From the NCBI RefSeq assembly GCF_028335745.1, contig NZ_CP116477.1:2294001-2358000 (forward strand): 64,000 nucleotides of DNA. Reading direction: 5' to 3'. The translations under genes were made by a program, and so were the position numbers. The notes below the pieces were generated by a model, which had not been told where the DNA came from, searched no databases, and was given only the letters and a program-made list of their open reading frames with translations. Position 1 is the first letter of the stretch; the number at the start of each line of letters is the position of its first letter. This document shows positions 1 to 8,326 of this stretch, piece by piece. This stretch comes from Pectobacterium sp. A5351. Its GTDB lineage: Bacteria; Pseudomonadota; Gammaproteobacteria; Enterobacterales; Enterobacteriaceae.

Positions 1-2
1 CG

Positions 3-434
3 CTATTACTGATCTGTATTTCTATTAGCCTGCATTCATTTGGTTATTTAAGGCAGTTTATGCGGTGGGGCTGCTTTTACCTCGTCCTGCTGCCGATTTT
101 CAATCTCTATCTGGCCACCTATGCCATTGCGAATACCAACGATGTCAGTTGGGGAACTAAAGGATTAACCACACATCAAGTTGGGGAGACAACACGAAAA
201 CGCTGGTCAAAGAGTCGCGATATGCTGCTAGCCATCTGGATTGTTAGCTCGCTGGCCATCGCCCTGCTATTTTTACTAAAGATTTCTCCAGCACAATGGC
301 TGCCCATCAGCCACTATATTGCGGCATTTTTCTTTCTCCGTACCATGCTATCGGCTTCAGTCAGTATTGGTAGCAGCATCACCAAACACCGGCGTATTCA
401 GCGCAAAAAGATCAAGGCATCCATCGCGTACTGA
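3..434 (+). CDS. C-terminal part of a chitin-synthase-like family 2 glycosyltransferase (truncated by window edge)
   Basis: The frame is open from the first bases of the window through an internal ATG at 60 to TGA at 432-434, so the gene starts upstream. The visible 143 residues hold two or three hydrophobic segments and, between them, NDVSWGTKG. This resembles the D-x-SWGT-K-G signature after the catalytic domain of chitin-synthase and related processive GT2 enzymes, which make polysaccharide at the inner membrane. The tail is basic (KHRRIQRKKIK), fitting a cytoplasmic C-terminus. The catalytic DxD and QxxRW regions would lie outside the window, so substrate cannot be inferred. A palindromic repeat and then a biosynthetic cassette follow on the same strand, but the 390-bp gap argues against a shared operon. 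Family assignment is moderate. Confidence 0.6.
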   Translation, partial: LLLICISISLHSFGYLRQFMRWGCFYLVLLPIFNLYLATYAIANTNDVSWGTKGLTTHQVGETTRKRWSKSRDMLLAIWIVSSLAIALLFLLKISPAQWLPISHYIAAFFFLRTMLSASVSIGSSITKHRRIQRKKIKASIAY

Positions 435-606
435 ATAAATTCTATTTAGGCAATTAATGGGGGATTAATCACAACTCAAAAATATTTTTTCTTAATGACA
501 GAATATCGCTGGAATTATTCCCTGATATCTATTTAAACTCAATACCGTTATTAGAGACTATCCTTTCCTATTTTAATTTTCAGGCGCGTTATTCAATAAT
601 AACGCC

Positions 607-743
607 TTAGGGCCTATTTCAGTAGGTGTTTATTGGCATAGCCCGTTTGGGCTCGGGCAGCGCAGAAAAACCGAAGCGTATACATAGTACGTGAAGATTT
701 TGAGCGCTGCCCAGGCCCAAAATGGCAAGTAAAATAGTCCTAA
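607..743. repeat. MITE-like palindromic element
   Basis: The gap between the glycosyltransferase end and the SDR gene carries an element whose ends are imperfect inverted repeats (left TTAGGGCCTATTT, right AAATAGTCCTAA) with a long internal inverted repeat: TTTGGGC and CGGGCAGCGC at 646-663 pair with GCGCTGCCC and GGCCCAAA at 704-721. It has no coding capacity and would fold into a large cruciform or hairpin. I infer a non-autonomous repeat. Only one copy is seen in this window. The rest of 435-823 is AT-rich, with no other feature apart from an ERIC-type end at 762-786. Confidence 0.5.
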
Positions 744-761
744 TGGGATAGGTTCTTATTC

Positions 762-786
762 TGCAACTTGACGTATGACGGATATA
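762..786 (+). repeat. Solo ERIC right-end sequence
   Basis: TGCAACTTGACGTATGACGGATATA matches the right terminus of the ERIC elements elsewhere in this window (CAACTTGAAGTATGACGGGTATA) with few changes, but no ERIC core or left end precedes it. It lies about 37 bp upstream of the SDR start codon, so it may sit in that gene's promoter or leader. A degenerate ERIC remnant is the simplest reading. Confidence 0.5.
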
Positions 787-823
787 TTCTAATGGATAGG
801 GATTTCAATATAAGGGAATCGGT

Positions 824-1603
824 ATGGATACGTCGCACTTCTTTGCCCTGTCTGGGAAAACCGCACTCATCACCGGAGGATCGCGTGGATTAGGGCTGCA
901 AATTGCTGAAGCACTGGGTGCACAAGGGGCGCATATTATTCTTTCAGCGCGTCACACTGATGAATTACAGACCGCGCAGTCACACCTATCCTCACTGGGT
1001 ATTCGTGCCGACTGGATTGTCGCCGACAATGCGCAAGATCGCGATATTGAACGCCTCGCAGAGGAAGCCATCGCCAAGACAGGCCAGATAGATATTCTCG
1101 TCAACAATGCCGGTACGGCATTTGGCTCCCCGGCGGAAGACCATGCGATGGCTGACTGGGATCGCGTCATGAACCTGAATATCCGCAGCCTGTTTTTATT
1201 AACGCAGAAAATCGGCAAATGCAGCATGATCCCCCGTCGCTATGGAAAAATTATCAATGTGGCGTCACTTGCAGGCTTGCAAGGCAATCTGCCCGGTTGG
1301 CTGGAAGGTATCGCTTACAGCACCAGCAAAGGTGCCGTGGTGAACTTTACCCGGGCATTAGCAGGCGAATGGGGAGAATTTAATATCACCGTTAATGCGC
1401 TCGCCCCTGGTTTTTTCCCCTCCAACATGACGCAGAACTTGTTGAATCGACTTGGTGTTGATGCACTGGCGCAAAAGTCCCCGCTGCGACGTATTGGTGA
1501 TGATCAAGACTTAAAAGGCGCAGCAATCCTCTTTGCCTCCGACGCCAGTAAATATATTACGGGCCAAATCCTTTCCATCGACGGAGGCATGAGCGCCATA
1601 TAA
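824..1603 (+). CDS. Short-chain dehydrogenase/reductase (SDR), first gene of a putative biosynthetic cassette
   Basis: The 259-residue protein is a classical SDR: NAD(P)-binding TGGSRGLG near residues 18-25, NNAG near 91-94, the active-site YSTSK, and a C-terminal SIDGGMSAI end typical of gluconate 5-dehydrogenase or 3-oxoacyl-ACP reductase relatives. It should reduce or oxidise a carbonyl/hydroxyl group using NAD(P)(H) in the cytoplasm; the substrate is unknown. The ATG at 824 follows a GGGAATC ribosome-binding-like stretch and gives the full Rossmann N-terminus. It runs in the same direction as the dioxygenase, sulfotransferase and aminotransferase genes that follow after a 129-bp gap, so a role in the same pathway is inferred from position only. 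Confidence 0.8.
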   Translation: MDTSHFFALSGKTALITGGSRGLGLQIAEALGAQGAHIILSARHTDELQTAQSHLSSLGIRADWIVADNAQDRDIERLAEEAIAKTGQIDILVNNAGTAFGSPAEDHAMADWDRVMNLNIRSLFLLTQKIGKCSMIPRRYGKIINVASLAGLQGNLPGWLEGIAYSTSKGAVVNFTRALAGEWGEFNITVNALAPGFFPSNMTQNLLNRLGVDALAQKSPLRRIGDDQDLKGAAILFASDASKYITGQILSIDGGMSAI

Positions 1604-1663
1604 ATACCGCTCACATCATTATTAATGGAGCTCATGGAGGAGGCGCGTAAATATAGCCAATAG

Positions 1664-1690
1664 GCATGCAACTTAAAGTATGGCAGGTAT
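1664..1690 (+). repeat. Degenerate ERIC right-end sequence
   Basis: CATGCAACTTAAAGTATGGCAGGTAT resembles the ERIC right end found in complete elements of this window. It lies in the 129-bp gap between the SDR gene and the TauD-type gene, without a recognisable core or left end. It may be an eroded ERIC insertion that separated two formerly closer genes. Confidence 0.4.
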
Positions 1691-1732
1691 CTACGGAGTT
1701 TTTCAGTCGAGCTAATTACAGGAGTAATAGCG

Positions 1733-2548
1733 ATGAAAAGTTGCTTTGATGGATGGTCACCACAAGTCATTGATAGTGAAGATAAGGCAGCGGTTATTGC
1801 GCATATCGAAAAATATCGGTTTGCCATCGTTACCCACGAATGGAAATACGATGATTCCGACTTCAAAAAAATGTCGGCGCTTTATTCGCTGGGGGACATT
1901 TATCAGTCTGACTTTAACCGTCAGGAACATAAAGAGGGCGTATCCACATCCGGGGTAAATCAGATTGGCGGGCTTACACGCGGCACGCATGTCGTTTTCA
2001 ATAGTACCTCACACCTTTCCCTTCATACCGATGGTTCTTATATCCCGATCGGAAGCATAAAAACATCGATTCTGCTTTGTAAGCAGCATGCGAGCCAGGG
2101 CGGCGGAACCGTTCTGTTCGATAGCGTCTCCGCCTTTCAGCAGCTTCAGGCCGAACACCCTGATTTAGCGAATATTCTGCTTGAAGAACAAATTTTCAGA
2201 CGCCGTTCAACCGGGACACAGTCCGGGAAACAGTACGCCCATATCGGTCCGGTTTTTCGTCCCGATCGGGACGGCGGATTTATTGGTGGCTTTACGCTAG
2301 ATATGACTGCCGACTGGGATTATTCACGCCGTATCCATCCGCGCGTGATTGAGGCCGTCGAATACCTGTCACAACTGGCTGCCGAAGGTAGCCACTATCA
2401 CCTGACATTCCCTCTTTATCGAGGGCAGGCCTTGATCATGCGTAACGATAAAATCTCTCACGGGCGGCATGCCTACACGGACGATCCCGCCAACCCAAGA
2501 ACACTGCTGCGAGGCATGTTCACCCGCGCCCCCACTCTGATCGCATAA
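1733..2548 (+). CDS. TauD/TfdA-family Fe(II)/2-oxoglutarate-dependent dioxygenase
   Basis: The 271-residue protein carries the TauD/TfdA facial triad: His98 and Asp100 in LHTDGSY, and His243 in NDKISHGRHAYTD. Arg256 or Arg260 (PRTLLRGMF) is the likely 2-oxoglutarate carboxylate ligand. Family enzymes couple decarboxylation of 2-oxoglutarate to hydroxylation, halogenation, desaturation or C-S/C-O cleavage of small acids; members in natural-product clusters often act on amino acids. A strong-looking AGGAG (1721-1725) precedes ATG 1733. It is followed after 14 bp by the sulfotransferase gene and by an aminotransferase that overlaps it, so these three are very likely co-transcribed and co-translated. 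The substrate cannot be read from sequence. Taurine use is unlikely, because no tauABC transporter is present here. Confidence 0.85.
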   Translation: MKSCFDGWSPQVIDSEDKAAVIAHIEKYRFAIVTHEWKYDDSDFKKMSALYSLGDIYQSDFNRQEHKEGVSTSGVNQIGGLTRGTHVVFNSTSHLSLHTDGSYIPIGSIKTSILLCKQHASQGGGTVLFDSVSAFQQLQAEHPDLANILLEEQIFRRRSTGTQSGKQYAHIGPVFRPDRDGGFIGGFTLDMTADWDYSRRIHPRVIEAVEYLSQLAAEGSHYHLTFPLYRGQALIMRNDKISHGRHAYTDDPANPRTLLRGMFTRAPTLIA

Positions 2549-2562
2549 TCTAAGGAGAGAGA

Positions 2563-3612
2563 ATGACCGATCGTTCAATGACAGAATCCGCGTTAGCGGT
2601 GCGTTGGGATGGCTGGCTAACCTGCCCGCAAGAGCACCTTCACGCCCGGATGCGGGATGAGTTAACCGAGATGTCGCTAGGTGAGAAAACACTGGCGCCG
2701 ATGCTGGCATTCGTTCATGAATACCGACTCAACGGCGTAAACTGGCGGGCTCAGGGCATACGCGGAGACGAAATTCAGGTGTCGCTACAGGATCTTCAAC
2801 ACGACGCTCCACCCTACTTTGCGCTGTTTTGCGAGAAAATCGCCCTTGCCGAAAAATACAAATGGGTCGGCGGCAGCGTGGATGCGGACATTCTGGCCGC
2901 ACAAACCCGCTATCAGAAATTTGCCATCGTCTCGACGCCCAGAGCGGGCACTCACCTGCTTCGCACGCTGTTAGGTTCCCACCCGAATATTGAAATGCAC
3001 GGTGAAGCCTTCAACCGCTTTGGTCAGCATTTGCTGCCCTATTCCGTTAAAGACACCACGCTGGAGACGATTCTGCATCGCCACCTGTTCAGACCCTATT
3101 TTGAATACGTCGAAGCGGTCGGTTTCGTGCTGTTTCGGGATCTTGATAGCCACTGGGGCGATGCCTCCATCTGGCCCGCCTTGCAGGCGATCCCCGATCT
3201 GAAACTGATCCTGTTGGAAAGAAAAAGCCGGCTACAGCAATTTGTGTCGTTGAAGAAAAGCCTGCGCGATCGCATCTGGTACGTTGGCAAGCAGGATAGC
3301 CGCCCGCTTTCGCACGAAAAAATGACAGTGCCTGTCGATGAATTAACGGAATTCATTGATAACAATCTGGAGAACCAGACCGCGTTTTATCAGGCTTTTC
3401 AGCACCATGACATCCTCACCCTTGACTACGAAGAGGTCACGTCAGCACCCGATTGCGTTACCAACGCGGTGCTGTCTTTTCTGGGGATTTCCAACTTCAG
3501 GCTCTGTGCCGGCACAGGGAAAAAAGAGACCCAAACCATTGATTCGATCGTGAGTAACGTTGATGACATCAGAACCACGCTGACAGGGACAAAATATGAA
3601 TCCTACCTCTAA
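2563..3612 (+). CDS. PAPS-dependent sulfotransferase-like protein with an extra N-terminal region
   Basis: The 349-residue product has a sulfotransferase-type nucleotide-binding region: FAIVSTPRAGTHLLRTLL (about residues 120-137) matches the 5'-phosphosulfate-binding loop seen in Stf0-like and other PAPS-dependent sulfotransferases. It is followed by SHPNIEMHGEAFN, with an acidic residue in the usual general-base area. A later LLERKSRLQQFVSLKKS segment could be the 3'-phosphate site. The first about 115 residues are not part of the fold I recognise and may form a binding or partner domain. Expected reaction: sulfuryl transfer to a hydroxyl or amine, in the cytoplasm. GAGAG before ATG 2563 supports the start, and its 3' end overlaps the aminotransferase start by 17 bp. 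Assignment to the superfamily is good; the substrate is unknown. Confidence 0.72.
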   Translation: MTDRSMTESALAVRWDGWLTCPQEHLHARMRDELTEMSLGEKTLAPMLAFVHEYRLNGVNWRAQGIRGDEIQVSLQDLQHDAPPYFALFCEKIALAEKYKWVGGSVDADILAAQTRYQKFAIVSTPRAGTHLLRTLLGSHPNIEMHGEAFNRFGQHLLPYSVKDTTLETILHRHLFRPYFEYVEAVGFVLFRDLDSHWGDASIWPALQAIPDLKLILLERKSRLQQFVSLKKSLRDRIWYVGKQDSRPLSHEKMTVPVDELTEFIDNNLENQTAFYQAFQHHDILTLDYEEVTSAPDCVTNAVLSFLGISNFRLCAGTGKKETQTIDSIVSNVDDIRTTLTGTKYESYL

Positions 3613-4840
3613 CCCCTACTGGCCGCCTTACACCGCCCTTGCGGAGAAAGATGAACGCCCGCTGATCCACCGTGGCGAAGGGGTTTATCTTTATGATGAA
3701 CGCGGCCAACGCTACTTTGACGCCATGTCCGGCTGTTATAATCACTGTCTTGGGCACTCTCACCCTGAATTCATTGCCGCCCTGCAACAGCAGTTATCCA
3801 CACTGATTCACGCCTGCAATATCTATTCAAACACCCAACTCCCCGGCGAACTGGCCGAAAAACTCGCCGCTCAGCTACTCGGTACAGGCCTTTGTAAGAC
3901 GTTCATCGTTGGGAGCGGTAGCGAAGGCGTTGAAAGTGCACTAAAAATGGCCTGGCAATATCAGGTCAACCGTTCCCGTCCAGCGCGAACGAAAATCGTG
4001 GCGATGAACGGCGCGTACCACGGCTGTACCCTCGGCGCGATGATGGCGACAAGACGCCCGTTTATCAACGAGGGCATTTTACCGACTCTGCTCGCCAGCA
4101 ATACGATCACGATGCCTCCACCTGAACACCTCAGCGATATCCGTGACTGGGAAACGCTGCTGGCAGAACAGGAATCGACTATCGCCGCCGTCATTATTGA
4201 ACCGATTATGGCAATGGAAGGCACCCGACTGCTGCCTGAGGGCTTCCTGCAACAGCTCTCGCTGTTGACAAAAAAGCACGACATTCCGCTGATCTGTGAC
4301 GAAGTCTACTGTGGCGTTGGCCGCGCGGGAACGTTCTGTGAATCAGTCTCACAAGGCGCACAGCCTGATATTGTCATTTTCAGCAAATGTCTGGGCAGTG
4401 GTGTACCTATCACCGCCGTGCTTGCAACGGAGGCGATTACCGACAGCTTCAAAGGGCAAATGCCGCCGTTTTTCCGCCACGGCCACACGCAGTCCGGCAA
4501 CCTGCTGGGCTGCCGCGCGGCGCTGTTTGTCATGGATTATCTGGATGCACATCACCTCTACGATGAAGTCACAGCAAAAGGAAGGATGCTCCTTCAACTC
4601 GCCAAACAATACCTCCCGCCAACCGAGGGGCTGATCAGCGTGCAAGGCAAAGGGCTGATGCTATCGATGACGTTTTCGTCCCTCGAACAGTGTGGTCGCG
4701 CTCAGGCGGCGATACGCCAGCATGGCGTCATCGTTGGTGCCGCAGGTCCGTACTTAAAACTGGCACCGGCTTTCACGATTTCCGCCAATGAAACAGAGGA
4801 ACTGATTCAACGCATGTCTACCGCACTAGGAAGCCTGTAA
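3596..4840 (+). CDS. Class III pyridoxal-phosphate aminotransferase
   Basis: This 414-residue protein has the class III (ornithine/acetylornithine/4-aminobutyrate type) layout: GSGSEGVESALKMA near 106-119 for phosphate binding, NGAYHG near 138-143, ICDEVYCGVGRAG with Asp235 facing the pyridine nitrogen, and SKCLGSGVP with the Schiff-base Lys264. The family moves an amino group between an amino acid or amine and an oxo acid. The ATG overlaps the preceding sulfotransferase gene by 17 bp, a sign of translational coupling. The following 2OG oxygenase starts 94 bp downstream. In context it could supply an amine, beta-amino acid or aldehyde intermediate for the cassette; that role is inference. It lacks features I would need to name it as ArgD, GabT or BioA. 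Confidence 0.85.
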   Translation: MNPTSNPYWPPYTALAEKDERPLIHRGEGVYLYDERGQRYFDAMSGCYNHCLGHSHPEFIAALQQQLSTLIHACNIYSNTQLPGELAEKLAAQLLGTGLCKTFIVGSGSEGVESALKMAWQYQVNRSRPARTKIVAMNGAYHGCTLGAMMATRRPFINEGILPTLLASNTITMPPPEHLSDIRDWETLLAEQESTIAAVIIEPIMAMEGTRLLPEGFLQQLSLLTKKHDIPLICDEVYCGVGRAGTFCESVSQGAQPDIVIFSKCLGSGVPITAVLATEAITDSFKGQMPPFFRHGHTQSGNLLGCRAALFVMDYLDAHHLYDEVTAKGRMLLQLAKQYLPPTEGLISVQGKGLMLSMTFSSLEQCGRAQAAIRQHGVIVGAAGPYLKLAPAFTISANETEELIQRMSTALGSL

Positions 4841-4934
4841 TGGACGTAAACCGCCGCTATCCGTCAGGTGTGATTAACACCCATCAGAGGTAATTGATAT
4901 TCATCAGTGGTCATTGACGACAGGGAGTGAAAAG

Positions 4935-5588
4935 ATGTCTAACTATTTTGATCTTGAACGCCTCATCCACGGCAAGCGACATGAAACCCCATTCCAGTGG
5001 GGAGAATTAACCCAGATATGGCGTAATAGTAATATCGCGTCAACGCTTGCTCACGAGTTCCCGACCGACGGGTTTAACTATCGTGAACGTAACGGCGGTT
5101 ACTTCTATCGCCGTACCCTGATTCCTTTAGCCTCCGGCAAAGTAAGCGACACCACAACGCTGTCCGACGCCTGGCAGGGACTGTGCAGCGAACTGGTTTC
5201 TGACACCTTTACTGCCGCCCTGTCCGCCTTCTGCGGGGCCGACCTTTCCGCATTCAAAATGGAAGCCGTAGCCTTTCGCGGCGGTAGGGACACGCACTAC
5301 CTCCCCCATGTCGACGCGTCGCTGACACGCGGATTCCGTCTGATTATCTATTTTAACGCCGAATGGGAAGAAAGCTGGGGCGGTGCCTTTCAGATTCTCA
5401 ACCCAGAAAACCATGCTGACGTCTGCCATTCCGTCCTCCCGATCATGGGCAACGCCAGCGTCATCATCCGCAACGGGTATTATGAAACCTGGCATGCGGT
5501 CGTGCCGTTAACTGGCGTTTCCGTCAAAACACGCAATGCGCTGAATATCACCTATTACGAACCCGGCACGATGAGTACGGCGCAGTGA
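4935..5588 (+). CDS. 2OG-Fe(II) oxygenase, prolyl-4-hydroxylase-like double-stranded beta-helix
   Basis: From ATG 4935 (AGGGAG eight bases upstream) the product has 217 residues. A TTG at 4914 would add seven residues but lacks a good ribosome-binding site. The iron ligands are visible as His125 and Asp127 in YLPHVDAS and His187 in ETWHAVVP, with Arg200 (KTRNALNITYY) as the likely 2-oxoglutarate anchor. RLIIYFNAEWEESWGGAFQ is typical of the prolyl 4-hydroxylase/PiuC-like oxygenase family. It should hydroxylate or desaturate a small molecule or residue in the cytoplasm. It is a second, unrelated-type 2OG oxygenase in the same cassette as the TauD-like enzyme. Its last codons overlap the start of the kinase gene, so those two are coupled. 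Confidence 0.8.
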   Translation: MSNYFDLERLIHGKRHETPFQWGELTQIWRNSNIASTLAHEFPTDGFNYRERNGGYFYRRTLIPLASGKVSDTTTLSDAWQGLCSELVSDTFTAALSAFCGADLSAFKMEAVAFRGGRDTHYLPHVDASLTRGFRLIIYFNAEWEESWGGAFQILNPENHADVCHSVLPIMGNASVIIRNGYYETWHAVVPLTGVSVKTRNALNITYYEPGTMSTAQ

Positions 5589-6127
5589 AGAAGCTCATTT
5601 TTCTCTACGGGCCGCCAGCGGTGGGGAAACTCACGGTCGGTCGGCTGCTGGCGGAGAAGATGGGAGCAACGCTCTTTCATAATCATCTGACGTATGATTT
5701 AGCGATCGCGGTGCTCCCACCTGACAGTGCATATAGCACACTCAGGCGCTTCGCCTGTGAGCTAAGGATCTATGCCATCTCGCTGTTTTTTGCAGAGGAT
5801 GAGCGCGACCTGATCACGACCTTCTGCTATGAGGGAAGCAAAGACGACGGGTACATTGAGGCGATAAAAGCGCGCTGCGCGGAACATGGCGTTACGCCAT
5901 TTTTCGTCCAACTCTGTAGCGACGAAGCGCACCTTTTAAATCGAGTGGAAAACGCTGACCGGCACCAGTTCGGTAAGGTAAATTCGCAGGATAAGCTCAA
6001 AGCCATTCTGAGGAATTACGACTACGCCGACACGATCGAGGCTGCCCATCATCGGTCGCTGCACACCTCTGCGCTGGCACCTCACGAAGCCGCAGAACAG
6101 CTAATCGAGTGGTTTTCTTCGTATTGA
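5585..6127 (+). CDS. Small P-loop kinase-like NTPase
   Basis: The 180-residue protein begins with the Walker A motif GPPAVGKLTVGRLL at residues 9-22, followed by HNHLTYDLA as in shikimate/gluconate/chloramphenicol-kinase-like AAA_18/AAA_33 proteins that phosphorylate small molecules. A GTG at 5585 overlaps the preceding oxygenase stop (GTGA arrangement). It is the last gene of the cassette; a stem-loop lies directly downstream. Family members phosphorylate small alcohols or nucleosides, or act in self-resistance by modifying an antibiotic. Here a biosynthetic or resistance role is inferred from the operon only. The Walker B and lid regions are not strongly distinctive. Confidence 0.65.
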   Translation: MKKLIFLYGPPAVGKLTVGRLLAEKMGATLFHNHLTYDLAIAVLPPDSAYSTLRRFACELRIYAISLFFAEDERDLITTFCYEGSKDDGYIEAIKARCAEHGVTPFFVQLCSDEAHLLNRVENADRHQFGKVNSQDKLKAILRNYDYADTIEAAHHRSLHTSALAPHEAAEQLIEWFSSY

Positions 6128-6140
6128 AGCGACAAAAAGC

Positions 6141-6166
6141 CCGTTGCCCCTGTTCAGGGGCAACGG
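6141..6166 (-). terminator. Intrinsic terminator for the GlsB/YmgE-like gene, possibly bidirectional
   Basis: A perfect 10-bp GC-rich stem (CCGTTGCCCC/GGGGCAACGG) with a 6-nt loop lies between convergent genes. Read on the minus strand it is followed by GGGCTTTTTG, a usable U-tract, so it should end the minus-strand small membrane protein transcript. On the plus strand the tract is weak. Confidence 0.7.
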
Positions 6167-6174
6167 ATATAGCA

Positions 6175-6423
6175 CTAGTCTCGTATTTTGCGGTACACCC
6201 ACAGCACGACAATCGCGCCGACAATCGCCACCACAAAACTGCCGAAGTTAAAGCCATCGACCCGGCCGAATCCAAAGAAAACGCTGATATACCCCCCCAC
6301 GACCGCACCGACAATCCCGAGCAACACCGTCAGGATAAAGCCGCCGCCGTCTTTACCGGGCATAATCCACTTAGCCAGAATCCCCGCAATCAAGCCAAAA
6401 ATAATCCAGGACAGAATACCCAT
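6175..6423 (-). CDS. GlsB/YeaQ/YmgE-family small membrane protein
   Basis: Taking the ATG at 6423, preceded by AGGAGT, gives 82 residues. The sequence begins MGILSWIIFGLIAGILAKW and continues with PGKDGGGFILTVLLGIVGA and two further glycine-rich hydrophobic segments, the full signature of the transglycosylase-associated/GlsB/YeaQ/YmgE family. These are inner-membrane proteins of about 80 residues linked to general stress responses; the biochemical activity is unknown. An upstream in-frame start would add 18 residues of non-membrane sequence and is not supported. It is monocistronic, convergent with the biosynthetic cassette, and ends at a clear hairpin terminator. Confidence 0.9.
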   Translation of the reverse strand: MGILSWIIFGLIAGILAKWIMPGKDGGGFILTVLLGIVGAVVGGYISVFFGFGRVDGFNFGSFVVAIVGAIVVLWVYRKIRD

Positions 6424-6604
6424 ACCTACTCCTCGCGTTTTCGTTTCACCACACCCGACGATGCCACTCATCAGCAAATCGGGCAGTTAAGCAAGTATAG
6501 GCAAACTTAGGGAAAATAACCTCCTTGTACAGATGTTCCTTAAAATAGAGGTTAATTTAATTAACAAATTTACTGACATGGTTAAACGCATTCATTTTTA
6601 TCGT

Positions 6605-7822
6605 CTACTTACGACTTTTTTCTAGAATTAATTCCGCTTCAAATATATCACCTACCTTTATTTTAGACGAGAGTGCATCTGATACTACGATACTTCTCCC
6701 TACTAGCTCTGATAAGTCTGGATTTTCTTCCTGAATCAATTCATCGAATGTAGGCCTACGTGATAACTCACCAAGAAAATCGGGATTAATACCTTGTTTC
6801 ACAATAATTCTATTAATCTTCTCAGAGCCAACAGAAATTTCACGTGGCAAGTCAAAAATACGTTCCTGACCTCTAAATTGACGATTCATTATAGAGATGT
6901 ATTTATTATTACGTAATTCTTCCTTAGCTCTGTTATCTCTCTCGTTTACCATCTCTTGACGTTCGCGTTCTGCTGTACGGCTTTTATAGTGAACTGAATC
7001 AGGGCGATCCCCAAGAGGGGACGCTATCGCCTCAGCAGAAATTTCTAAGCCAGCCATTCGTAGATATTTTGACATCACTCCTCTAGTGGCAGAGTCAAAG
7101 GCAAATGGGAGTTGTTTGGTACTGATCTCAATCGGATCTTCAGGCTCAGGATCAACTATTTTCAATTGACTTCCCATCTGGCCCTCAATCCCTATTCTCA
7201 ACCCACATGCTAAGCGCTGACCAGTATGGCGAGCTGGAAATATAATTGAATTTTTCTGAGCAACACCACCAGTAGCGGGTGGGCCTTTGTTACCTAATTG
7301 CTGGTCTCTGTATTCATCGCCTGATTGTGTGCCTTTGCACTCAATAACATGCCAATTACCATTGCTATCACGAGCGACAAAATCAGGCGTTTTATTCGGT
7401 CCTCTTTTACTAGTTCGAATTTGTGTTGCACCAGTTGTCGCTGCAAATTTTTTCAGGAAATATCGACCATCAACAATGTGTACTAAAGATAATTTTTCAG
7501 ATAGCCATAACATGGGAACTCCCATACCAAAATCGTCGCTCAAAATAGTTTTTTGATGGGCATCAAGATCGGAAAAACTACGAGTAAGTCTGATATCATC
7601 GTCTCCGGTAAGAGCTGAAAAATATCTAACCCACGCCCAAAACTCACTCAATGAGACTCCCGTGGATGATGTTGGCGTGGTTAGATACCCAATCATCCAA
7701 AGCATTGCCGGGATATTTAGGCTATCCTGACTTTTGCCAGCCAGAAAACTTGCTGGAAATGCTGGCATCCCTCTCTTGGGCCATGTTTTTTTATCAATAA
7801 GTACATCAAGAAATCGATTCAT
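6605..7822 (-). CDS. Uncharacterised AT-rich orphan with a PD-(D/E)XK nuclease-like motif
   Basis: I do not recognise this 405-residue protein as a whole. Near residues 145-164 it has TPDFVARDSNGNWHVIECKG, which fits the PD-(D/E)XK core: Asp147 on one strand, then Glu161-x-Lys163 on the next, as in restriction and repair nucleases. The first about 130 residues are rich in Trp and aromatics. A Lys/Arg/Glu-rich helical stretch follows near 280-310, and the C-terminal region has no recognised motif. Base composition is clearly more AT-rich than the flanking genes, and it stands alone between AT-rich gaps, which suggests horizontal transfer. A solitary defence nuclease or degraded restriction component is possible; that role is inference. 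The ATG at 7822 gives the longest frame; no strong ribosome-binding site is obvious. Confidence 0.6.
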   Translation of the reverse strand: MNRFLDVLIDKKTWPKRGMPAFPASFLAGKSQDSLNIPAMLWMIGYLTTPTSSTGVSLSEFWAWVRYFSALTGDDDIRLTRSFSDLDAHQKTILSDDFGMGVPMLWLSEKLSLVHIVDGRYFLKKFAATTGATQIRTSKRGPNKTPDFVARDSNGNWHVIECKGTQSGDEYRDQQLGNKGPPATGGVAQKNSIIFPARHTGQRLACGLRIGIEGQMGSQLKIVDPEPEDPIEISTKQLPFAFDSATRGVMSKYLRMAGLEISAEAIASPLGDRPDSVHYKSRTAERERQEMVNERDNRAKEELRNNKYISIMNRQFRGQERIFDLPREISVGSEKINRIIVKQGINPDFLGELSRRPTFDELIQEENPDLSELVGRSIVVSDALSSKIKVGDIFEAELILEKSRK

Positions 7823-7971
7823 TTATCTTATTCCGTTAATTATTATCAATCGAAAATTTTTTAATTAATCACCAGATTAATCATACAAATCATAGCATTT
7901 ATCTTTAGTTAGTCTCATTAAAAAATATCAACACTAACGGAGTCCAGAACACTTTATTAAAATGACATGTC

Positions 7972-8326
7972 TCATGAGTTAATGTTGAATCTCTTACTTC
8001 GCATGCAAATACACCGATGCCCACGATACGCCGAGGTGCTTTTTACCGGACGCCCAGCGGCAAACTGGTTGGCGTAGTTCGCTAAAATATTAGGAAAGTC
8101 AGGTGAAGCGACGCGGGCGAGACCCAGAATTCTGAACACTCTCCAGTTCCGTCGCAGGGGCACCCACTTCTCTGCCAGAGAGGTTATTGTGAATGGAAAG
8201 TATCGCGTGTTCAGGGTTCTTCAGATCGTGCACAACCACTTCGCAGAATGGCGCGAACGTCTCGCTCAGCCCTTTCGCTATCGCATCTAACTGCGTCAGC
8301 AGCAGACCTTCTCCAGATGCCGCCAT
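7972..8326 (-). pseudogene. Truncated, frameshifted YheO-like PAS-domain transcriptional regulator
   Basis: The frame 8326-8099 encodes AIAKGLSETFAPFCEVVVHDL and SIHNNLSGREVGAPATELE, matching the N-terminal PAS-like YheO domain. The downstream frame 8163-7972 continues with NYANQFAAGRPVKSTS, which aligns with the conserved end of the same domain (YPN-x-ADGxPIKSSS type). The two parts need at least one frameshift to join, and the C-terminal HTH domain of YheO regulators is absent. The remains directly abut an osmC-like remnant. In intact relatives this is a cytoplasmic DNA-binding regulator of about 220 residues, so this locus is non-functional. Confidence 0.65.

Follow-up and report, generated by a model that had tools for sequence, protein, structure and literature searches.

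What is made by a compact six-gene cassette in which no gene builds a molecular scaffold, and how far does it extend beyond the genome in which it was noticed? The window analysed here is a stretch of 64,000 nucleotides from Pectobacterium sp. A5351 (NCBI RefSeq assembly GCF_028335745.1, contig NZ_CP116477.1, positions 2,294,001 to 2,358,000 of the forward strand), and the cassette occupies positions 824-6127 of it. We consider it probable that five of the six genes form a horizontally spread biosynthetic operon of plant-pathogenic bacteria, whose enzymes remodel a primary metabolite into a small sulfated and probably amino-bearing product. The unit is a portable five-gene core with a clade-specific first gene, rather than a set of six equal members.

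Open reading frame (ORF) mapping places six intact genes on the plus strand. The first (824-1603), found in the Pectobacterium and Erwinia version of the cassette, encodes a short-chain dehydrogenase/reductase (SDR) oxidoreductase recognized by Pfam. The core runs from a TauD/TfdA-type Fe(II)/2-oxoglutarate (2OG) oxygenase (1733-2548; PF02668, 95 bits) through a Stf0-like sulfotransferase using 3'-phosphoadenosine 5'-phosphosulfate (PAPS) and bearing a conserved helical N-terminal domain (2563-3612), a pyridoxal phosphate (PLP)-type class III aminotransferase (3596-4840; PF00202, 277 bits) and a prolyl-4-hydroxylase-like Fe(II)/2OG oxygenase (4935-5588; PF13640/PF13661) to a small P-loop kinase (5585-6127). 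The ORF listed for the fourth core gene spans 4914-5588 with a TTG start at 4914; the ATG at 4935 is probably the true start, since it is preceded by GGGAG and fits the starts of the homologues. A preliminary description of this DNA had reported six genes in one direction with overlaps at 3596/3612 and 5585/5588, and both junctions are as it stated: at the first, the ATG of the aminotransferase precedes the stop codon of the sulfotransferase within 17 bp (3596-3612), a putative site of translational coupling, and at the second the stop codon of core gene 4 and the GTG start of the kinase share the 4 bp GTGA. Its six class assignments stand above Pfam cut-offs for five of the proteins; the P-loop protein gave sub-threshold P-loop matches only, and it is called a kinase by the fold of its model. 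No known RNA element was detected in window positions 1-8000 at E 0.1.

With the sulfotransferase as probe, loci were collected from GTDB species genomes, in which 19 were confirmed, and from 111 plasmid records, of which the 14 with a query coverage of 80% or more are all Pseudomonas (P. syringae-group) plasmids. Among the 21 loci compared (the 19 genome loci and two plasmid stretches; individual loci carry L numbers), the five core genes stand in the same order and on the same strand in every case, and all five are open in 20. The exception, L036 (CP091064, Pectobacterium sp. PL152), has frameshifts in several cassette genes; in its genome the FHIPEP and PRK10457-type genes are split as well, which points to a poor assembly, and the frameshifts are probably assembly errors, not decay. 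The loci belong to Pectobacterium, Erwinia, the P. syringae group, Xanthomonas and Paracidovorax, which at the level of genus, not strain by strain, are plant pathogens. Names of homologous proteins add Ralstonia and one Streptomyces entry, and a sulfotransferase homologue (P0030) and an oxygenase homologue (P0193), each on a 7632-base contig, may represent one further cassette. The cassette is nevertheless rare: in an even sample of 369 genomes of the class this genome alone had it, and its sulfotransferase was present in 9 of 25 Pectobacterium genomes. A phage or virus origin was rejected, there being no match in 50,697 phage records and no relative among four pattern matches in IMG/VR.

The first gene is what differs between lineages. 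At a cut-off of 1e-80 the SDR occurs in exactly the nine Pectobacterium genomes that have the sulfotransferase, and it is present in both Erwinia loci; it was not found in the Pseudomonas, Xanthomonas or Paracidovorax loci, and the place ahead of the five core genes is taken in P. syringae by avrD and a histidine phosphatase gene. Because the SDR and AvrD are each present only in the loci of some lineages, the core requires neither of them nearby. The six-gene block of the preliminary description has therefore to be divided into five genes that co-occur in several genera and an SDR limited to Pectobacterium and Erwinia. Its view of a single biosynthetic-type operon lacking a non-ribosomal peptide synthetase (NRPS) or polyketide synthase (PKS) is upheld by the conserved order, and we found neither rare co-occurrence nor separate housekeeping roles, the two outcomes that it had named against itself.

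Several observations concern how the cassette has been inherited. In all 21 sequences inspected, which come from Pectobacterium, Erwinia, Pseudomonas, Xanthomonas and Paracidovorax, an in-frame ATG sets the aminotransferase start at this 17-bp overlap; the P. syringae plasmid annotation starts the aminotransferase 57 bp later. All six genes are under purifying selection, with dN/dS (the ratio of nonsynonymous to synonymous substitution rates) between 0.045 and 0.208 in 18 pairwise gene comparisons covering six genes and three relatives. The five gene trees, each built on 19 of 22 rows (L036, L016 and L025 being set aside, L036 also from the protein alignments), agree in their main splits. Concatenation of the genes places the copies of X. 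albilineans and Xanthomonas sp. GPE 39 with Paracidovorax (99/96), a grouping that recurs in four single-gene trees with bootstrap/SH-aLRT values of 81/79 and 82/73 up to 96/90 and is unresolved in the kinase tree; monophyly of Xanthomonas is disfavoured (approximately unbiased test, p-AU 0.0145), the group having been picked after inspection of the single-gene trees. The agreement of the trees, together with the placement of these copies beside Paracidovorax, suggests that the five-gene core was transferred as a unit.

Within Pectobacterium the cassette, including the SDR gene, occupies one site. Its right edge is marked by a PRK10457-type membrane protein gene (6175-6423, minus strand; NCBIfam match), which is present in 22 of the 25 genomes and adjoins the cassette kinase in all nine that are cassette-positive. 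In each of the 13 cassette-negative genomes possessing this gene, its neighbour on that side is an ABC-transporter gene (10 genomes) or another conserved gene (three), at a distance within ~240 bp in 12 and of ~800 bp in one (L050); the three cassette-negative genomes without a PRK10457-type match are uninformative on the site. Both outer neighbours are present in three of six cassette loci checked (L018, L020, L021), and the other three differ on the left.

The preliminary description had regarded the cassette as unrecognised, and in this it was mistaken, as the five-gene unit equals PSPPH_A0110-A0106 of P. syringae pv. phaseolicola 1448A, reported in 2014 with its likeness to Pectobacterium stated (Mucyn et al., 2014; PMC3879358). 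In that strain PSPPH_A0112-A0106, downstream of avrD, constitute one HrpL-dependent operon, and deletions of avrD and of A0107 each reduced growth on bean; the authors proposed an unknown small molecule, speculated that the genes are dispensable for syringolides, and noted similar operons in Xanthomonas, Acidovorax, Pectobacterium and Ralstonia (PMC3879358). PSPPH_A0107 has elsewhere been named a 'putative SanC oxygenase' (PMC2856684), and these two papers were the ones relevant to the cassette in a search of the literature on the Pectobacterium version, as far as the consulted parts of each extend. Core genes 1 to 5 correspond in turn to PSPPH_A0110, A0109, A0108, A0107 and A0106, numbers that we assigned by gene order and product name and not by locus-tag conversion. 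The P. syringae genes share the order, the strand and the 17-bp overlap of the window core, and their products are 59% (TauD-type), 53% (sulfotransferase), 63% (aminotransferase), 62% (prolyl-hydroxylase-like) and 49% (kinase) identical to those of the window. Given this identity, the agreeing trees and the sharply bounded homologue sets of the sulfotransferase and the kinase, the five proteins are orthologous to PSPPH_A0110-A0106, beyond mere membership of the same Pfam classes. The operon has been known in outline since 2014 and is chemically unsolved.

What the encoded enzymes might do was judged from motifs, folds and nearest relatives. The motif names used here (metal and 2OG ligands, PLP lysine region, PAPS motif, Walker A) are established knowledge; the invariance is what we measured, for the oxygenases and the aminotransferase in alignments of 18 of 22 rows (L016, L019, L025 and L036 left out). 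The preliminary description had judged the catalytic residues of these three enzymes to be intact, and they are invariant in all 18 sequences: H98-x-D100, H243 and R256/R260 in the TauD-type oxygenase, D235-E236, Y141-H142-G143 and S263-K264 in the aminotransferase, and H125-V-D127, H187 and R200 in the prolyl-hydroxylase-like oxygenase. The SDR scores 393 bits against NF006070, an NCBIfam model of the gluconate 5-dehydrogenase subfamily with a cut-off of 279. For the TauD-type oxygenase the nearest solved sequences are 7n7v, a 'predicted hydroxylase', and DfmD (9j0j), followed by gamma-butyrobetaine dioxygenases, and all four of its NCBIfam matches (TmpA, TMLD, BBOX and GlaH) lie at 18-38 bits, far under the cut-offs. 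Taurine dioxygenase, TauD proper, was considered as its identity and discarded, as no equivalog-level match was reached. The prolyl-hydroxylase-like oxygenase has 22 homologues, all 40-94% identical. A literature search by the PDB codes of the nearest solved proteins returned unrelated papers only.

Core gene 2 combines the PAPS-binding (5'-PSB) motif, invariant in 23 sequences, with the sulfotransferase fold, so PAPS-dependent sulfotransfer is its predicted activity. Identity among its homologues drops from 49% to 31% or less with nothing between (37 versus 14 of 51). Residues 1-110 (window 2563-2892) form a conserved N-terminal domain ahead of the Stf0 fold, modelled as helices, in which W15, W18, W61, G65 and R67-G68-D69 are invariant. 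Some 105 of these conserved residues fall outside every aligned range of the structures listed; the domain is modelled with moderate confidence, and Foldseek gives it low TM-scores (query TM mostly 0.2-0.4). That position does not demonstrate a new fold, and we do not claim one. The P-loop protein, whose Walker A motif is invariant in 40 sequences, has in its model the fold of a small-molecule kinase, and an APS kinase, the supplier of PAPS, is one possible identity for it; of the 120 homologues listed out of 360, 26 are 50-89% identical and the remainder 41% or less.

From these predicted activities we infer the substrate, the order of steps, the product and any role in Pectobacterium. The cassette would build no backbone and would act on a primary metabolite already in the cell, a substrate expected because no cassette gene builds a scaffold. 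The 2OG oxygenases, joined by the SDR where it is present, would hydroxylate the substrate or oxidize it to a carbonyl, which the class III aminotransferase would turn into an amine; the P-loop kinase would phosphorylate a hydroxyl, as a handle or as a final group, and the Stf0-like enzyme would transfer sulfate from PAPS. Read most simply, this gene set would oxidize the substrate to a carbonyl and aminate, phosphorylate and sulfate it, and a sulfated, phosphorylated amine, as suggested in the preliminary description, is a possible product class; the product would be a small, polar, sulfated and probably amino-bearing metabolite that aids the bacterium in plants.

A number of points weigh against this proposal. 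The enzyme roles are predicted from sequence and fold, no member having been assayed in the literature consulted, and among the NCBIfam matches listed (25 of 235 for the SDR and 25 of 69 for the aminotransferase) no equivalog cut-off was reached and only the SDR reached a subfamily cut-off. Since the loci were picked for the sulfotransferase, 21 of 21 measures co-occurrence given that gene. Among 20 chosen flanking proteins there was no exporter, scaffold enzyme or resistance protein that constantly neighbours the cassette, so that secretion of the metabolite is an assumption; nor did these proteins, a chosen subset of the ORFs, include a fixed transporter or regulator. The virulence effect in P. 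syringae was itself called slight, an earlier competition assay found no effect of avrD, and an avrD-like gene and the cluster, non-contiguous, share one Ralstonia megaplasmid, which speaks against independence from AvrD (PMC3879358). Finally, a strict hrp box was found in none of nine Pectobacterium and Erwinia sequences, loose-pattern matches there falling mostly inside genes, and for this reason a plant-induced role in these genera is only putative. Window positions 1-8000 likewise have no strict hrp box and two loose matches, both inside genes.

Among the alternatives, the one that survives best is that the cassette modifies a macromolecule, such as a surface glycan, a lipid or a ribosomally synthesised and post-translationally modified peptide (RiPP), and not a free small molecule; we regard it as unlikely. 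The nearest solved sequence to the sulfotransferase is labelled a lipopolysaccharide (LPS) sulfotransferase NodH, folds similar to its model include heparan and tyrosylprotein sulfotransferases, and the enzyme has an extra N-terminal domain. The prolyl-hydroxylase-like oxygenase resembles the peptide-maturing oxygenase YhhC weakly (25 bits, cut-off 150), and in P. syringae a 99-bp element, PSPPH_A0111, lies ahead of the core (PMC3879358). However, inspection by eye of the gaps and upstream regions in 16 sequences, Pseudomonas being left out, revealed no small ORF of at least 20 amino acids common to the genera, the sole recurrent one lying, in Pectobacterium, across the tauD start in another frame; a RiPP was rejected for want of a conserved precursor ORF in this set. 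The 20 flanking proteins likewise showed no glycosyltransferase, carrier protein or exporter fixed beside the core, and an aminotransferase and a small-molecule-type kinase suit free metabolites better.

It is quite unlikely, in our view, that the cassette is an accessory of type III secretion systems (T3SS), captured into their regulon wherever it is present and working only with the apparatus. HrpL control in P. syringae (PMC3879358) and the location of plasmid loci near hopD1/hopQ1-1 or xopAH are what such a role would predict. Two of nine Xanthomonas and Paracidovorax loci have exact boxes of the plant-inducible promoter (PIP) type 264 bp ahead of the first core gene, and these may be chance; the other seven lack an exact box on the plus strand within 600 bp upstream, and further PIP-type matches fall inside genes or on the opposite strand. 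Together with the missing strict hrp boxes of Pectobacterium and Erwinia, this led us to reject general membership of the T3SS regulon. The distribution of FHIPEP genes tells the same way. In this genome a second FHIPEP gene, presumably belonging to a T3SS, lies at a distance of ~54 kb from the cassette, and a second FHIPEP occurs in eight of nine cassette-positive Pectobacterium genomes, but also in 11 of 16 cassette-negative ones, so the link to the cassette within the genus is weak. Moreover, the cassette-bearing assemblies of X. maliensis and Xanthomonas sp. GPE 39 have a single FHIPEP protein, presumably flagellar.

That the cassette tailors syringolide, by hydroxylation, amination, phosphorylation and sulfation of the AvrD product, is very unlikely. 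It would explain why the core on the P. syringae plasmids follows avrD and the histidine phosphatase gene downstream of one strict hrp box, which a consensus scan placed ahead of avrD in L016, L017 and L027. Against it, P. syringae AvrD as query had no match in any of the 25 Pectobacterium genomes or in 12 of 13 genomes chosen from among the carriers of the 21 loci, the same set in which FHIPEP was sought; P. syringae pv. cilantro, the positive control, was matched, and distant AvrD-like proteins (~30% identity) could escape this single-sequence query. Syringolide would then not be the substrate outside P. syringae and Ralstonia, AvrD being without a match there, and AvrD alone yields syringolides in E. 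coli (PMC3879358). Two further observations concern these loci: in L027 (8126-8767) the avrD-adjacent histidine phosphatase gene of P. syringae pv. cilantro stops ~13 codons short of where the match ends, with all five core genes open, and a gene for a CsrA-type carbon storage regulator comes after the cassette on the plasmids of L016 and L017 (12755-12991 in each).

Catabolic pathways often include TauD-family and aminotransferase genes, and the first oxygenase matches the broad Pfam TauD/TfdA model best, yet a catabolic or detoxifying operon that would combine TauD-like sulfur scavenging with transamination of a plant compound is the least probable reading of all, as the more specific models and solved sequences lead to gamma-butyrobetaine/trimethyllysine-type and other hydroxylases, none a taurine dioxygenase and far below equivalog cut-offs, the groups that a PAPS sulfotransferase and a kinase add cost energy, and no uptake system was seen fixed beside the cassette among the 20 flanking proteins.

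The surroundings of the cassette offer some side observations. In the intergenic region upstream lies a repeat resembling a miniature inverted-repeat transposable element (MITE) at 602-767, with 29-nt imperfect inverted arms; elsewhere in the genome one stretch matches it over nearly the full length (80%) and two match it in part (88% and 93%), and a similar stretch stands upstream of the SDR gene in Erwinia mallotivora (L023) and not in the other Pectobacterium loci aligned. Directly to the left of the cassette, window positions 3-434 hold the C-terminal end of a chitin-synthase/glycosyltransferase-like gene (sub-threshold Pfam match), and P. aroidearum and P. zantedeschiae have related genes on that side of the cassette. 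Beside the insertion site on the right, positions 6605-7822 on the minus strand encode a 405-aa protein with no Pfam match above cut-off and no NCBIfam match at 0.01.

Returning to the biosynthetic operon that we favour, the analysis adds to the earlier work a form in Pectobacterium and Erwinia that is headed by an SDR gene and lacks AvrD, and a five-gene core that is the transmissible unit. Unrelated plant pathogens share that core as a block that has spread among them, purifying selection on it is strong, and it is also present in assemblies without a recognizable type III export gate. Going further, one may speculate, although we consider it unlikely, that plant pathogens of at least five families (Pectobacteriaceae, Erwiniaceae, Pseudomonadaceae, Lysobacteraceae and Comamonadaceae) share a transferable route from an ordinary nucleotide or sugar to an unseen class of sulfated amino-nucleosides or amino-sugars, which would need no scaffold enzyme, would be varied by lineage-specific first steps (the SDR in Pectobacterium and Erwinia, AvrD and the phosphatase in P. 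syringae) and would meet a common target in plants. If such a shared virulence metabolite exists, it could be a chemical weak point common to several crop pathogens, or a marker for them. An operon for a product of this kind would probably escape standard NRPS/PKS cluster finders, and the question of what it makes is directly testable in a host without AvrD.

How does the cassette compare with systems that are better known? A kinase adding a temporary phosphate is part of the nikkomycin pathway, although a literature search on that step found no paper. The aminohexuronic-acid branch of polyoxin and nikkomycin biosynthesis (PolD, PolK, PolI/NikK) uses two 2OG oxygenases followed by a PLP aminotransferase, the same classes as in the cassette, a parallel drawn between classes and not between sequences; in the polyoxin pathway the three are proposed to act serially on octosyl acid (PMC5365060). 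The 'SanC' label of PSPPH_A0107 is also the name of a nikkomycin-cluster gene, a link by name only. There are also differences: octosyl acid is built in those pathways by a radical S-adenosylmethionine enzyme (PolH) and an enolpyruvyl transferase, neither of which is among the six cassette genes, and the cassette has a sulfotransferase, which the consulted part of the pathway descriptions does not mention (PMC5365060). The resemblance, on this comparison of enzyme classes, is one of logic and not of membership. With bacterial sulfotransferases of the Stf0/NodH type the cassette enzyme has the PAPS-binding motif and the C-terminal fold in common, and its ~105-residue N-terminal stretch is extra. 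Syringolide biosynthesis by AvrD is genetically linked to the core in P. syringae. The closest counterpart is the P. syringae avrD operon itself, which shares the five core genes with the window; it is plasmid-borne, has an hrp box and begins with avrD and the histidine phosphatase gene, whereas the Pectobacterium version, in a genome without an AvrD match and at a locus without a strict hrp box, is chromosomal and begins with the SDR.

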